The notes under the pieces: generated by a model
Told to the model about the DNA's origin: nothing
Seen by the model: only the letters and a program-made list of their open reading frames with translations
Databases searched by the model: none
From: an uncultured Oscillospiraceae bacterium
Lineage (GTDB): Bacteria; Bacillota; Clostridia; Oscillospirales; Oscillospiraceae
Direction of reading: 5' to 3'
Length of the DNA: 41,660 bases
Assembly (NCBI GenBank): GCA_947627715.1
Contig: CANQXK010000023.1
Coordinates: forward strand, 1 to 41,660
Part shown: positions 2,341 to 30,963 of the stretch, one piece after another
How positions within the stretch are numbered: position 1 is the stretch's first letter
How the letters are laid out: each line of letters begins with the position of its first letter
Translations under genes and position numbers: made by a program

Positions 2341-3720
2341 TCAAAGCGCGGGCTGAGGGGGCAGCGCGGCGAGACCTGCGGCCAGCTCCTCGTCGGTGGG
2401 GATGTGGTCGGTCATGGTGCCGTTGTTGAACTGCTCGTAGGCCACCAGGTCAAAGTAGCCGGTGCCGGTGAGGCCGAAGACGATGTTCTTGGCCTCGCCC
2501 GTCTCTTTGCACTTCTTCGCCTCGTCGATGGCGACCTTGATGGCGTGGCTGGACTCCGGCGCGGGGAGGATGCCCTCGGTGCGGGCGAAGAACTCCGCGG
2601 CCTCAAAGACGGCGGTCTGCTCCACGGAGGTGGCCTCGATGTAGCCGTCGTGATAGAGCTGGGAGAGGACGGGACTCATGCCGTGGAACCGAAGGCCGCC
2701 GGCGTGGTTGGGGGAGGGGATGAAGCCGGCGCCCAGGGTGTACATCTTGGCCAGCGGGCAGATCATGCCGGTGTCGCAGAAGTCGTAGGCGAACTTGCCG
2801 CGGGTGAAGCTGGGGCAGGAGGCCGGCTCCACGGCGATGATGCGGTAATCCCGCTCGCCCCGGAGCTTCTCGCCCATGAAGGGGGAGATGAGGCCGCCCA
2901 GGTTCGAGCCGCCGCCGGCGCAGCCGATGATGATGTCGGGGACGACGCCGTACTTGTCCAGGGCGGTCTTGGTCTCCAGGCCGATGACGGACTGGTGCAG
3001 GAGCACCTGATTGAGGACGGAACCCAGGACGTAGCGGTAGCCGGGGTTGGAGGTGGCAACCTCCACTGCCTCGCTGATGGCGCAGCCCAGGGAGCCGGTG
3101 GTGCCGGGGTGCTCGGCCAGAATCTTCCGGCCCACAGCGGTCTCCATGGAGGGGCTGGGGGTGACGCTGGCGCCGTAGGTGCGCATGACCTCCCGGCGGA
3201 AGGGCTTCTGCTCGTAGCTGACCTTCACCATGTAGACCTTGCAGTCCAGCCCCAGGTAGGCGCAGGCCATGGAGAGGGCCGTGCCCCACTGGCCGGCGCC
3301 GGTCTCGGTGGTGACGCCCTTCAGGCCCTGCTTCTTGGCGTAATACGCCTGGGCGATGGCGGAGTTGAGCTTGTGGGAGCCGGAGGTGTTGTTGCCCTCA
3401 AACTTGTAGTAGATGTGCGCGGGGGTCTGAAGCTTCTCCTCCAGACAGTAGGCCCGCACCAGGGGGGAGGGACGGTACATCTTGTAGAAGCCCAGGATCT
3501 CATCGGGGATGGGGACCTCGCGGGTGTCGTTGTCCAGCTCCTGGGCGATAAGCTCGTCGCAGAACACGGCGGAGAGGTCGGCGGCTGTCATGGGCTGGAG
3601 GGTGCCGGGGTTCACCAGCGGCGCGGGCTTGACCTTCATGTCCGCCCGGACGTTGTACCAGGTCTTGGGCATCTCGTCCTCGGCAAGGTAGATTTTGTAG
3701 GGGATTTTCTGTTCGCTCAT
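2341..3720 (-). CDS. trpB: Tryptophan synthase beta chain, TrpB2-type
   Basis: A 459-residue fold-type II PLP enzyme that condenses indole with serine to give tryptophan. The PLP lysine is K117 in GSHKLNSA, and the phosphate-binding loop GGGSN is at 269-273. Length and the N-terminal MPKTWYNVRAD stretch fit the TrpB2 (TIGR01415) branch rather than the roughly 400-residue TrpB1 that works with TrpA. ATG 3720 was chosen because AAAGGAG lies 8 bases ahead; longer frames run into the leader RNA. No trpA or other trp gene is adjacent, so the gene stands alone. That suits salvage of free indole, a role proposed for TrpB2. The upstream T-box with a UGG specifier ties expression to uncharged tRNA-Trp. 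Confidence 0.93.
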   Translation of the reverse strand: MSEQKIPYKIYLAEDEMPKTWYNVRADMKVKPAPLVNPGTLQPMTAADLSAVFCDELIAQELDNDTREVPIPDEILGFYKMYRPSPLVRAYCLEEKLQTPAHIYYKFEGNNTSGSHKLNSAIAQAYYAKKQGLKGVTTETGAGQWGTALSMACAYLGLDCKVYMVKVSYEQKPFRREVMRTYGASVTPSPSMETAVGRKILAEHPGTTGSLGCAISEAVEVATSNPGYRYVLGSVLNQVLLHQSVIGLETKTALDKYGVVPDIIIGCAGGGSNLGGLISPFMGEKLRGERDYRIIAVEPASCPSFTRGKFAYDFCDTGMICPLAKMYTLGAGFIPSPNHAGGLRFHGMSPVLSQLYHDGYIEATSVEQTAVFEAAEFFARTEGILPAPESSHAIKVAIDEAKKCKETGEAKNIVFGLTGTGYFDLVAYEQFNNGTMTDHIPTDEELAAGLAALPPQPAL

Positions 3721-28019: not shown

Positions 28020-28062
28020 GATCGCCGGAAAAAGGCCCTGCGGCCTTTTTCCGGCGGTTTTT
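28020..28062. terminator. Terminator between blaR1 and the yolD-like gene
   Basis: CGCCGGAAAAAGGCC/GGCCTTTTTCCGGCG followed by GTTTTT is a perfect 15-bp stem of the hairpin I type, between convergent genes. The rest of 27947-28060 holds no gene. Confidence 0.9.
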
Positions 28063-28450
28063 ACCGTCCGCCCAGGTCCACGATGTCCCGTGTCTCAATT
28101 TTGGCGTTTGTCAGAAGCAGGACGCCGGAGGCGGGGTGGCTGGCGATGTACTCCCCCGTGGTGACCCGGTAACGGCCCAGGTCGGCGCCGTTCTCGGTCT
28201 TCAGCCGCTCAAACCACGTCACCGTCACCGGGTCTCCCCGCCGGAAGGCCCGCAGCCGCCGGTCCAGCTGCTCGGCCCTGTCCGGGGCGATCTCCGGGCG
28301 GGGCGCGTACCGCAGCTCCCGCGCGGCCAGAGAGTCGTCCAGGCCCCGGAGCGCGGAGAAGGGCGCGAAGATCTTGGCCCGGTCGGCCCTGGCCATTTTG
28401 GGATAGCCGCTGCTGCGGCGGGCGTTGATGATGTCCTGATAGATGTTCAT
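28061..28450 (-). CDS. YolD-like protein
   Basis: A 129-residue protein. MARADRAKIFAPFSALRGLDD is the start of the YolD-like domain, and TVTWFERLKTENGADLGRYRVTTGEY has the beta-sheet pattern of the family. YolD-like genes often adjoin Y-family polymerases such as uvrX in Bacillus phages and plasmids, which suggests a role in damage tolerance; the mechanism is not known. Its ATG overlaps the polymerase stop (ATGA) and GGAGG lies ahead, so the two are made from one message. Confidence 0.87.
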   Translation of the reverse strand: MNIYQDIINARRSSGYPKMARADRAKIFAPFSALRGLDDSLAARELRYAPRPEIAPDRAEQLDRRLRAFRRGDPVTVTWFERLKTENGADLGRYRVTTGEYIASHPASGVLLLTNAKIETRDIVDLGGR

Positions 28451-29802
28451 TTTCTATGTCCTCCAATCTGGCCGTTCCGCTCGCGGGCGGTGGCCCCCTC
28501 CAGAAAATCGTGGCCCTTCAAGAGGGCGTTTTTCCCGTACTTTTTGTGTACGTCCAGCACGGCCCGCTGAAGCGCGCTCTCCCGCGCCTCGCGCCGGCTG
28601 TTCTGGAACAGATTCAGCTGCTCCACCCGCTCCTGCGCGCCGGAGAGGCGGATGGCGGTGAGGTTGATCCGCCGCACCGTAAGCTCCCGGTTGACGATCC
28701 TGTCGTAGAGCGTCAGGGCCGCCTCCGTCACCCGCGACAGCGCGTCCGTGGGGCTGCCCAGGGGCTGGGTCCCGTGGGCGGAGACGGGGACCTTTCGCCC
28801 GTAGTGGTCGGACTTGACGGCGCCGCCCCAGTCCCCGTTCTCCCGGTCGTACCCCACGTGGAGCACCACGGCCCCGGCGATGAGGTCCCTGTCCGTCAGG
28901 TCCAGCGCCAGCTCCTCCGCCATCTCTCGGACGATGATCCGGGCCTCGTCGAAGCGGTAGGGGCGGGAGAGGACCTGCCCGGTGCTGCGGGAGGTGTCCG
29001 ATGGGCGGTAGGACTTGATGTCCTCCATGGTGCAGCTCTCCTCGCCCCAGGCGTGGTCTATGAGGATCTCCGCGTCCACGCCGAAGGTCCGAAAAAGCGC
29101 GCTCTCGTCCCGGAGGCTCAGCCGCGCCAGGTCCCCCATGGTGAAGACCCCCAGCTTCGCCAGCCGCGCGGAGACGCCCCCCGCCACCATCCAGAAATCG
29201 GTGATGGGGCGGTGGTCCCACAGGAGCCGGCGGTAGCTCATCTCGTCAAGCTCGGCCAGACGCACCCCGTCCCGGCCGGGCTTCGTCTTTTTCGCCACCA
29301 CGTCCATGGCGATCTTGGCCAGATACAGGTTCGTGCCCAGCCCCGCCGTGGCGGTGATGCCCGTGCGGGCCAGCACGTCCCGGATCATGGTCACGGCAAG
29401 CTCCCGCGCCGTCATTTTCAGGGGCTTTAAGTATTTGGCCGCGTCGATGAACACCTCGTCGATGGAGTAGACGTGGATGTCCTCCGGGGCGACGTATTGG
29501 AGGTAGGCGGCGTAGATTTTGGCGGAGGTCTCCACGTAGAGGGCCATCCGGGGCCGGGCGATGATGAAATCCACCTCCGTCCCGGTGCGGGCCTTCACCT
29601 CCCGGAGCCGCTCATAGACCTCAAAAAGGCGCGGCCTCCCCGGTACGCCCAGAGCCTTGAGGGCCGGGGACACGGCCAGACAGATGGTCTTGTCCGTCCG
29701 CGTCTCGTCCGCCACCACGAGCCTGGCCGTCAGCGGGTCAAGCCCCCTGTCCACGCACTCCACCGAGGCGTAGAAGGATTTGAGATCGATGCAGATATAC
29801 AT
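28447..29802 (-). CDS. Y-family DNA polymerase, UvrX/DinB-like
   Basis: A 451-residue translesion polymerase. The palm has CIDLKSFYASVEC (metal-binding Asp; a Lys replaces the usual Ala after Leu, as in UvrX/YqjW proteins) and YSIDEVFID (catalytic Asp-Glu). The helix-hairpin-helix thumb has LGVFTMGDLARL. A little-finger region follows, and the C-terminus NLFQ includes a possible QLNLF clamp-binding motif. It would copy past damaged bases with low fidelity. ATG 29802 follows GGAGG at seven bases; the frame runs on into the promoter region. It is divergent from the XRE/ImmA pair and sits under a promoter overlapping probable XRE operators. Confidence 0.93.
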   Translation of the reverse strand: MYICIDLKSFYASVECVDRGLDPLTARLVVADETRTDKTICLAVSPALKALGVPGRPRLFEVYERLREVKARTGTEVDFIIARPRMALYVETSAKIYAAYLQYVAPEDIHVYSIDEVFIDAAKYLKPLKMTARELAVTMIRDVLARTGITATAGLGTNLYLAKIAMDVVAKKTKPGRDGVRLAELDEMSYRRLLWDHRPITDFWMVAGGVSARLAKLGVFTMGDLARLSLRDESALFRTFGVDAEILIDHAWGEESCTMEDIKSYRPSDTSRSTGQVLSRPYRFDEARIIVREMAEELALDLTDRDLIAGAVVLHVGYDRENGDWGGAVKSDHYGRKVPVSAHGTQPLGSPTDALSRVTEAALTLYDRIVNRELTVRRINLTAIRLSGAQERVEQLNLFQNSRREARESALQRAVLDVHKKYGKNALLKGHDFLEGATARERNGQIGGHRK

Positions 29803-29893
29803 AACCCTGCCTCCAGAGGGGCTTCCCTGCTTACAGACACAGTATACCCCTTGACGTGTCCGAAAAAACGGACAGGACCGGCAAAATTTCCTG

Positions 29894-29922
29894 TTGACAT
29901 TTTGGGAAGTCTGATGTATAAT
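29894..29922 (+). promoter_or_regulatory. Promoter of the XRE/ImmA operon
   Basis: TTGACA (29894-29899), 17 bases, TATAAT (29917-29922) is a full consensus promoter with a predicted start near 29929. GGGAAGT (29904-29910) lies in the spacer and ACTTCCC (29934-29940) just past the start. Confidence 0.9.
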
Positions 29923-30017
29923 ATGGCAAGTAGACTTCCCATGCACAAGCCCATTATAGGCGATTGTACTTCGCTTGTCAAGGGGTTTTTGAAAATTTTT
30001 GCGAAGTAATACTTCCC
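29904..30017. promoter_or_regulatory. Array of probable XRE operator half-sites
   Basis: Five copies of ACTTC(C/G)C occur: GGGAAGT (29904-29910), ACTTCCC (29934-29940), ACTTCGC (29968-29974), and GCGAAGT-AAT-ACTTCCC (30001-30017). The last pair is an inverted repeat adjoining the ribosome site of the XRE gene. Sites fall in both divergent promoters, so one regulator could control both operons. Confidence 0.75.
29953..29981 (-). promoter_or_regulatory. Promoter of the Y-polymerase/yolD operon
   Basis: TTGACA (29981-29976), 17 bases, TATAAT (29958-29953) on the minus strand is a full consensus promoter. An ACTTCGC half-site (29968-29974) lies in its spacer. Confidence 0.9.
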
Positions 30018-30032
30018 AAAGGAGGCGTACAC

Positions 30033-30446
30033 ATGAAATTTGGCGAGAAACTGCGTCGGCTGCGCGCCGAAAAGCACATCTCTCAGGAGGAGGCCGCGCG
30101 GGCGGCGGGCATCTCCCGCAGGGCCTACGGCTCCTACGAGCAGGACGGGGTCTACCCCCGCAACCGGGAGATCTATGCGCGTCTGGCGTCGCTCTTTTCG
30201 TGCGACGTGAACTACCTGCTCACGGAGGACGAGGATTTTGTGACCAGCGCGGGGGAGAAGTACGGCCCCCGGGGCAGCGCCCAGGCCAGGGAGCTGGTGC
30301 GGGAGGCCACGGCCCTCTTTGCCGGCGGGGAGCTTGCCGACGAGGACAAGGACGAGATGCTCCGGGCCATCCAGGAGGCCTACTGGATCGCCAAGGAGCG
30401 CAACAGGAAATACAAGGGCGGCGGCGGACATGACGGACGCGCGTAA
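30033..30446 (+). CDS. XRE-family repressor, partner of ImmA/IrrE peptidase
   Basis: A 137-residue protein. Residues 1-65 form an XRE helix-turn-helix (KLRRLRAEKHISQEEAARAA, then GISRRAYGSYEQDGVYPR). A linker and a C-terminal helical region, DEDKDEMLRAIQEAYWIAKE, follow; this tail is common in XRE regulators encoded beside ImmA/IrrE peptidases. In ImmR/ImmA and DdrO/IrrE pairs the repressor is cleaved by the peptidase after DNA damage. ATG 30033 follows AAAGGAGGC. The gene overlaps the peptidase gene by 17 bases. Confidence 0.88.
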   Translation: MKFGEKLRRLRAEKHISQEEAARAAGISRRAYGSYEQDGVYPRNREIYARLASLFSCDVNYLLTEDEDFVTSAGEKYGPRGSAQARELVREATALFAGGELADEDKDEMLRAIQEAYWIAKERNRKYKGGGGHDGRA

Positions 30447-30963
30447 AATCGTCAGGCGGGCCGACGCCCTTGTGCGCTGGTGCGGCAGCCGGGACCCGAA
30501 GCGGGTGGCGCGGGAGCTGGGGATCGAGATCCTGCCCCGCGGCTTCTCCGCCCAGAAGGGGGCCTACAAGGTCATCATGCGGGTGCCCTTCATCTTCATC
30601 AAGTCCGACCTGGACCCGGTGATGGAGAACATCGTCCTCGCCCACGAGCTGGGGCATCACGTGCTCCACAGGCGCGAGGCGGAGAGCGCCGGCGGCTTTC
30701 AGGAATACGACATCTTCAATATGCGCCACAACCGCATGGAGTACGAGGCCAACGTCTTCGCCTCCCAGCTGACCCTGCCTGACGAGGAGATTTTGGAGTA
30801 CATCCAACAGGGGATGGACATTGGCGAGGTCGCCCGCGCCATGGGGACCGACGTGAACCTGGTGGCGCTAAAGGCGGACACGCTGATCGCGGAGGGGCGC
30901 GCCCTCCGCCGGCAGGAGCACGACACGGACTTCCTGGCCCCGGACAAACCGAATAAAAAATAG
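30430..30963 (+). CDS. ImmA/IrrE family metallopeptidase
   Basis: A 177-residue M78 peptidase. The zinc motif HELGH is at 72-76 in IVLAHELGHHVLH, and a downstream acidic motif, MEYEANVFASQLTLP, supplies the third ligand Glu near residue 108. The C-terminal helical part ends in a charged tail. Such enzymes cut a partner XRE repressor, the product of the overlapping upstream gene here, relieving repression. Divergence from the polymerase operon fits a damage-response switch. Two stem-loops follow the stop. Confidence 0.92.
   Translation: MTDARKIVRRADALVRWCGSRDPKRVARELGIEILPRGFSAQKGAYKVIMRVPFIFIKSDLDPVMENIVLAHELGHHVLHRREAESAGGFQEYDIFNMRHNRMEYEANVFASQLTLPDEEILEYIQQGMDIGEVARAMGTDVNLVALKADTLIAEGRALRRQEHDTDFLAPDKPNKK

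Follow-up and report, generated by a model that had tools for sequence, protein, structure and literature searches.

A four-gene cassette in an uncultured Oscillospiraceae bacterium of the gut appears to place a Y-family DNA polymerase and a YolD-like protein under the control of an XRE-family repressor and an M78 (ImmA/IrrE-type) metallopeptidase. The cassette lies in the window, the stretch of 41,660 nucleotides analysed here (contig CANQXK010000023.1, positions 1-41,660, assembly GCA_947627715.1). Judged from sequence and from analogy with characterized relatives, it is best read as a self-contained and local damage switch of the ImmR/ImmA type wired to a UvrX/YolD-type mutasome, a reading to which we give a probability of about 0.65. 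The initial annotation of the region had proposed a damage switch, and this part of it is now favoured by the conserved gene order, by the lack of a LexA match above cut-off in the genus, by the exchange of the XRE-M78 pair with S24-type regulators, by an intact peptidase active site and by a conserved motif in the repressor linker, whereas repression, cleavage and induction are what we infer from these features and from relatives.

Architecture of the cassette

The polymerase and YolD-like genes (28061-29802, minus strand) are divergent from the XRE and M78 genes (30033-30963, plus strand), and a 230-bp gap separates the two pairs.

28061-28450, minus strand: YolD-like gene, 129 amino acids
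28447-29802, minus strand: Y-family polymerase gene, 451 amino acids
30033-30446, plus strand: XRE repressor gene, 137 amino acids
30430-30963, plus strand: M78 (ImmA/IrrE-type) metallopeptidase gene, 177 amino acids

All four reading frames are intact. The TGA of the polymerase gene and the ATG of the YolD-like gene overlap as ATGA, the XRE and M78 genes share 17 bp, and AGGAGG precedes the XRE start at 30033. The polymerase start is placed at 29802 by its ribosome-binding site (RBS) and by alignment with relatives; a longer open reading frame (ORF) starting at 29946 was set aside on the same grounds. Pfam assigns the polymerase to PF00817 (1e-23) and PF11799 (1.9e-12), the XRE protein to HTH_31 (6.5e-9) and HTH_3 (4.9e-8), and the metallopeptidase to Peptidase_M78 (PF06114, 5.5e-17). 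The ORFs and Pfam matches, together with relatives in the case of the YolD-like gene, confirm the four genes, their divergence and both overlaps as initially annotated.

Promoters and candidate operators

Two perfect sigma-70 promoters, each with 12 of 12 consensus positions, face each other between 29803 and 30032; when the 3.2 kb that were scanned are shuffled, a mean of 0.4 promoter-like sites results. Candidate operator half-sites lie in and beside both of them; the conservation values given below are column means over 17 loci of the genus.

29953-29981, minus strand: polymerase promoter, TTGACA (29981-29976), 17 bp, TATAAT (29958-29953); 12/12
29894-29922, plus strand: repressor promoter, TTGACA, 17 bp, TATAAT; 12/12
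29904-29910, plus strand: candidate half-site GGGAAGT in the spacer of the repressor promoter; conservation 0.95
29925-29940: candidate operator GGCAAGT-AG-ACTTCCC just past the repressor -10; right half 0.99, left half 0.80
29959-29974: candidate operator GGCG...ACTTCGC in the spacer of the polymerase promoter; conservation 0.96 and 0.90
30001-30017: candidate operator GCGAAGT-AAT-ACTTCCC between the repressor promoter and the RBS; conservation 0.94 and 0.87

The polymerase promoter scores 12/12 in all 17 genus loci, and the repressor promoter scores 10-12 of 12 in the same 17. Column conservation in these loci averages 0.91 over the half-sites, compared with 0.65 over the other inter-promoter columns (54 columns) and 0.55 over the upstream ones (20 columns). 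The shared operators claimed for the cassette are therefore supported by the two 12/12 promoters and by half-sites conserved in 17 members of the genus. At more distant loci the half-site letters differ and the layout, as judged by eye, is similar.

The predicted leader of the polymerase mRNA is about 144 nt long (29803-29946). Within it, ACCCCTTGAC (29846-29855) is complementary to GTCAAGGGGT at the polymerase -35 (29977-29986).

Repressor and metallopeptidase

The M78 protein carries HELGH at position 72 and a third ligand at E104. Residues H72, E73, H76 and E104 are invariant in 23/23 sequences, so the active site is intact by sequence. The helix-turn-helix (HTH) domain of the XRE protein spans residues 3-62 and, in an AlphaFold2 model (mean pLDDT 83), is followed by helices 65-94 and 103-123, which are connected by a linker of residues 95-102. 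An LFAGG motif (F96-A97-G98-G99) sits in this linker; G98 and G99 are invariant in 24/24 sequences, and F96 and A97 are kept in at least 90%. The corresponding pattern [LMVI][FYC][ASTG]GG is found in 39/39 XRE proteins scoring above 130 bits, all of which precede an M78 gene, a count that expresses conservation and not independence because the profile was built on the family of these same proteins. It is also present in 5/5 plasmid XRE proteins and in 1 of the 29 weaker hits (40-125 bits). The distances of XRE, M78 and polymerase proteins are correlated over 32 loci (r 0.87, 0.78 and 0.71). The window XRE lacks a C-terminal tail [FY]TPKKYR that is common to many partner XRE proteins of phages and Clostridia, including the Geobacillus-type phage proteins of L202 and L208.

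Exchange with LexA-like regulators in the genus

The M78 gene is present in 17 of 34 genomes of the genus, and a polymerase at least 67% identical to that of the window occurs in exactly these 17. The proposed four-gene order recurs in all of them (the contig of G174 ends within the M78 gene). None of the 34 genomes encodes a LexA protein above the model cut-off. Seven, all without M78, encode a two-domain LexA-like protein that scores 91-110 bits against a cut-off of 111. Its gene lies beside a polymerase gene in 7/7 cases, so that an S24 LexA-like gene takes the place of the XRE-M78 pair in these sister genomes. In six the two genes are divergent and an ImuB-C-like gene follows, and in G150, at a contig end, they are co-directional. 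Peptidase_S24 is matched by both LexA-like proteins scanned (2 of 7), GDSM is present in 7/7, and the proteins show a Cys-Gly pair, which we take to be as in UmuD.

The two-domain LexA-like gene is found in 0/17 genomes with M78 and in 7/17 without it (Fisher p 0.007), and in 0/14 versus 4/7 of the genomes that are at least 90% complete (Fisher p 0.006), an exclusion that is confounded by kinship because the polymerases linked to the LexA-like gene form one group in the tree. Ten genomes have neither M78 nor the LexA-like protein; in some of them UvrX-type polymerases occur without either regulator nearby, and in G161 and G179 no polymerase match was obtained.

Flanking genes within 3.6 kb mostly differ among the genus loci, which indicates that the unit has moved or that its surroundings have been reshuffled. 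Strong shared flanks occur among close relatives (L162-L166, L168/L169, L171/L173), and weaker or opposite-side matches are few (for example, L165/L174 and L161/window). Upstream of the LexA-like gene in L175-L180, an inverted repeat GGAAGC...GCTTCC, noticed by eye, resembles GGGAAGT...ACTTCCC of the cassette; it could be either a retained core or a chance resemblance.

Distribution in the family and the polymerase tree

A sample of 150 genomes of the family contains 23 with an M78 match, at 27 loci. An XRE gene is present at 26/27 of these loci and a Y-polymerase gene within the examined stretch at 20/27, in several orientations; three of the 20 belong to the genus of the window, and one (L123) is a fragment. 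The arrangements are either divergent or a single operon of the form XRE-M78-(ImuB-C)-polymerase-(YolD).

In a quick tree of 103 polymerases, the XRE-M78 and S24 labels require 7 changes, compared with 1 for a single swap and 15.9 for shuffled labels. Because XRE proteins were among the matches of the S24 profile, the S24 labels were checked for GxSM, which is present in 19/20 labelled rows; the number of changes becomes 6 or 7 because the S24 label of L076 is wrong (a plain HTH protein). Mixed-regulator groups include L107 with L108 and L188, all three with an ImuB-C-like gene beside the polymerase gene, and L129 with the polymerase on contig C39 of the window's own genome. On this comparison of sequences, XRE-M78 and S24 regulators are seen to have been swapped repeatedly beside related polymerases.

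LexA, a second polymerase and the reach of the switch

The genome to which the window belongs (G000, 2.64 Mb, 99.6% complete) has a single M78 match, that of the cassette, and two Y-polymerases, the cassette copy and a DinB-type enzyme on contig C39. The latter (C39 14039-16763, L139) has as neighbours an XRE-S24 protein, an ORF of 89 amino acids limited to the DNA-binding part of LexA, and a small ImuB-C-like protein, so that this one genome seems to operate its two polymerases under different kinds of proteolytic switch. The name ImuB-C-like rests on a C-terminal Trp pattern and on context, with a weak DUF6504 match in 1/14 relatives and an ImuB-C family match in 0/14. No LexA above the model cut-off was found in this genome, and its two partial matches are both on C39. 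The description of the cassette as LexA-independent fits the lack of a LexA match above the cut-off here and throughout the 34 genus genomes, but it calls for caution in view of the XRE-S24 protein and the LexA-DNA-binding-only ORF on C39 and of the family-wide counts given below.

The operator pattern of 30001-30017 has one exact copy in the genome and, with up to 2 mismatches, 45 sites, compared with 70 for a reversed control. One site with a single mismatch is found on C12, within a mechanical ORF, and another on C80, and no repair gene was recognised there by eye. The search for LexA boxes covered the 400 bases upstream of recA, where neither GAACN4GTTC nor any tested half-site string occurs. 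A global regulon is thus unsupported for the single operator pattern tested genome-wide, and the single exact copy of this pattern suggests a local switch.

Phages, plasmids and other contigs

The M78 protein is matched in 23 phage records (tblastn). Ten of them were examined: a Y-polymerase gene lies in the stretch in seven, of which four are titled complete phage genomes (L201, L203, L204, L205), and none lies in the stretch in three. Seven plasmid records match as well, and in 4 of the 5 examined the polymerase gene adjoins the XRE-M78 pair or is no more than about 1 kb away, namely two Monoglobus plasmids, the conjugative plasmid pRUMAL02 of Ruminococcus albus 7 (L212) and a Campylobacter plasmid; the examined stretch of the Vescimonas plasmid has no polymerase gene. 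A small ORF of the Campylobacter plasmid was considered as YolD and dropped, having no Pfam support. A search of genome contigs with a single M78 protein gave 5 loci with a polymerase in 4, three of which are not independent because they appear to duplicate contigs already counted for the genus. The unit had been regarded as compact enough to move as a module, and XRE-M78 pairs with a Y-polymerase do recur on phages and plasmids. In phage phi OH2 (L208, 2510-4290), an XRE-metalloprotease pair directly precedes a TIR-domain protein, that is, another cargo behind the same kind of switch.

Polymerase and YolD-like protein

String searches of the polymerase find DLKSFYASVE at 6, SIDEVF at 113, QLNLF at 395 and KKYGKNALLKG at 420, the last two of which we take to be beta-clamp-like and RecA-NT-like motifs, respectively. 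With these active-site, clamp and RecA-NT-like motifs the polymerase looks UvrX/YqjW-like, a reading that also leans on PMC6511836 and PMC12926913.

The YolD-like protein of the window has no Pfam YolD (PF08863) match by itself, and neither do its nearest counterparts in the alignment, those of L063 and L064. Its assignment therefore rests on relatives: PF08863 is matched at E up to 0.1 by 15 of 22 aligned YolD-like proteins, with a best value of 1.2e-6, and the protein in the matching place on pRUMAL02 is annotated as YolD-like (PF08863 1.9e-5, just below the cut-off). It is likely to be an accessory subunit of the polymerase.

Proposed mechanism

The XRE protein would bind several GGGAAGT-type half-sites and repress its own promoter together with that of the polymerase-yolD operon opposite, as the conserved footprint suggests. 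By analogy with relatives, a DNA-damage signal, plausibly single-stranded DNA (ssDNA) as for PprI and CapP, would activate the M78 peptidase. The peptidase may then cut the XRE linker at or beside LFAGG (F96-A97), in the manner of ImmR cleavage, and the repressor would leave the DNA. The polymerase and the YolD-like protein would be co-produced and, probably together with RecA, form a Pol V-like mutasome comparable to that proposed for UvrX/YqjW and YolD. Because the repressor would control itself and the peptidase too, the switch could reset, presumably once the damage ends. In this way a separate metallopeptidase would take the part that, for a similar polymerase of sister species, probably falls to a LexA/UmuD-like S24 autoprotease.

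Besides the kinship that confounds the exclusion in the genus, several caveats and observations weigh against this mechanism. Although the half-site mean was reached by 0/10000 column permutations over the 17 genus loci, this figure is not a true probability because the half-sites were picked by eye on the scored sequences and the genomes are related. In a shuffle test for repeated 6-mers, 74/400 shuffles were as good as the window, which is not significant, and among the 24 of 27 family loci so tested 9 had at most 23/400 shuffles as good, a weak result overall; support for shared operators therefore comes from conservation. The polymerase gene is 5-6 kb distant in L101, L111 and L113, and at 7/27 M78 loci (L124, L125, L126, L131, L132, L134 and L137, with several lying close to the end of a contig) the stretch has none. 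The XRE protein of L132, which has an M78 partner and no polymerase nearby, is one of the 29 weaker hits and lacks the linker motif. Matches to S24 domains only, or weak partial ones, occur in both groups of genus genomes, including M78-bearing G000, G167, G178 and G180. LexA above the cut-off is present in 87/150 family genomes, and a cross-count made by hand from the match lists finds it in 12/23 genomes with M78 and 75/127 without (p 0.65, no association), so that M78 is not preferentially found in LexA-free genomes family-wide and a loss of LexA accompanying the M78 unit in general is not supported. Furthermore, the M78 protein of the window is smaller than IrrE and leaves no room for the additional C-terminal part of the latter, and its signal may therefore differ.

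Alternative explanations

The same regulation would be expected of a phage-type immunity switch, left over or domesticated from a prophage or an integrative and conjugative element (ICE), in which the polymerase is an early-gene passenger that serves the element and not the mutagenesis of the cell. ICEBs1, TnSmu1 and phages do employ ImmR/ImmA (PMC8960796, PMC10233336), and both the polymerase-bearing phage records and the mostly differing flanks described above fit this explanation. Nevertheless, it is fairly unlikely for the cassette, because the two immediate neighbours encode an M56 peptidase and a PfkB kinase, neither of which is a phage gene by Pfam, because the unit persists in 17 genomes of a single genus, and because a narrow pattern search of viral_contigs found no relative of the window M78 protein; no relative of a phage M78 protein was found there either. 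Quite unlikely, too, is that the same wiring answers to a signal other than DNA damage, such as redox or zinc, a peptide-controlled protein or a phage protein, since its target is a polymerase for lesion bypass and since S24 autoproteases, which classically answer to RecA-ssDNA, are found at the sister loci. Some ground for it is given by redox/zinc signalling to IrrE (PMC7907104) and by ICEBs1 ImmR/ImmA, which is also switched via RapI, and SaPI3 ImmR, which answers a protein of another element (PMC10233336).

A third alternative, that XRE and M78 make up a toxin-antitoxin-like module, or some other independent one, and only happen to adjoin the polymerase genes, is very improbable. In its favour, the NCBIfam model of a fused relative is named spr1629 repressor/antitoxin, although it is hit at just 25 and 39.5 bits, far short of the cut-off of 335, and seven M78 loci have no polymerase in the stretch. 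However, facing promoters that both carry half-sites, linkage to a polymerase in 20/27 loci with varied orientations and repeated regulator exchange with S24 all argue against such a module, and for Streptococcus mutans ImmR/ImmA the data do not support a toxin-antitoxin module according to the authors of PMC10233336.

Relation to known systems

The damage-switch reading is closest to ImmR/ImmA of Bacillus subtilis ICEBs1, in which a 127-amino-acid XRE repressor is paired with an M78 peptidase and binds six sites over both promoters (PMC8960796). The window likewise has an XRE protein with no protease domain of its own beside a small HExxH M78 peptidase. Its conserved half-sites lie in both promoters and are putative repressor sites. 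ImmR is reportedly cut at F95-M96, in a linker between two predicted C-terminal helices (PMC8960796); the likeness to the window XRE is one of topology and motif. However, ImmR/ImmA controls a conjugative element, whereas the window pair faces an operon of a Y-polymerase and a YolD-like gene.

DdrO/IrrE of Deinococcus is also an XRE and M78 pair for a LexA-independent damage response, and ssDNA activates its peptidase PprI (IrrE) (PMC10904395). Several repair genes are under DdrO; the single exact genomic copy of the window operator pattern, like the lack of a half-site string upstream of recA, points against such a regulon here. RecA/LexA governs the Deinococcus translesion cassette, and IrrE/DdrO runs other repair genes, for example, recA (PMC8072749). 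A third relative is CapH/CapP of CBASS, whose PADLOC models are matched by the XRE (CapH, 2.5e-9) and M78 (CapP, 1.4e-12) proteins. The CapH-type repressor is cut by a peptidase stimulated by ssDNA, as stated in PMC10233336. CapH/CapP control an anti-phage system, whereas the polymerase and YolD-like proteins of the window have no PADLOC match. Foldseek with the repressor model places SinR, CapH, DdrO, ImmR, P22 c2 and others among the first 15 hits, none with E < 0.001.

The other half of the cassette resembles the putative UvrX/YqjW-YolD-RecA mutasome in that a single operon encodes a YolD-like protein and a polymerase in which clamp and RecA-NT-like motifs are recognisable. YolD operons of Y-polymerases are described in PMC6511836 and PMC12926913, and LexA control of such polymerases in B. 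subtilis and Staphylococcus aureus is discussed in the former; the terms XRE, ImmA and LexA are absent from PMC12926913. The neighbourhood of M78 and polymerase genes was partly anticipated in 2013 by Aravind (PMC3765255), where M78 (DUF955) genes are placed with ImuB-C and, in the conclusions, with DinB, and SOS-linked proteolysis is guessed; the term XRE is absent from that text, and the passages concerned contain neither operators nor regulator exchange. Among the matches listed, no description of an XRE-M78 switch on a Y-polymerase was found by title or start of abstract, in a search that mostly leaves out the subscription literature.

Implications for induced mutagenesis

Induced mutagenesis is usually discussed as an output of LexA and RecA. 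If the proposed mechanism is correct, gut Clostridia and their mobile elements would induce mutagenesis via a metallopeptidase and so escape LexA-directed inhibitors, which could explain how damage-induced mutation is kept in lineages without LexA. A wider reading, which we put forward tentatively and at somewhat less than even odds, is that the cassette represents a LexA-free, stand-alone SOS unit in which damage sensed by the metallopeptidase turns on the error-prone mutasome directly. Its regulator would be interchangeable with LexA/UmuD-like S24 autoproteases beside polymerases of the same kinds, and the unit would circulate on phages and plasmids as well as chromosomes, even beyond Firmicutes (Campylobacter plasmid), and be the main route of induced mutagenesis in at least one genus with no canonical LexA. 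Because S24 and M78 regulators have been exchanged repeatedly beside one kind of polymerase, the question is open to a test by comparison. The wiring would be reversed with respect to Deinococcus, where XRE/M78 runs repair genes and RecA/LexA runs translesion (PMC8072749).

Variation among individual loci

The identity between the window and L161 (G164) is 98% for the YolD-like protein, 89% for the polymerase, 89% for the XRE protein and 76% for the M78 protein, a gene-to-gene spread that suggests a mosaic produced by recombination. L170 consists of an XRE gene and an M78 fragment at a contig end. In L166 (G162:C27:12933-13019), the last 29 polymerase codons are duplicated between the polymerase and YolD-like genes. 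The XRE and polymerase starts of L063 and L064 (G020 and G117) are about 570 bp apart, and in L008, the same place as L063, ORF 2665-3108 resembles a RidA-type protein by eye.

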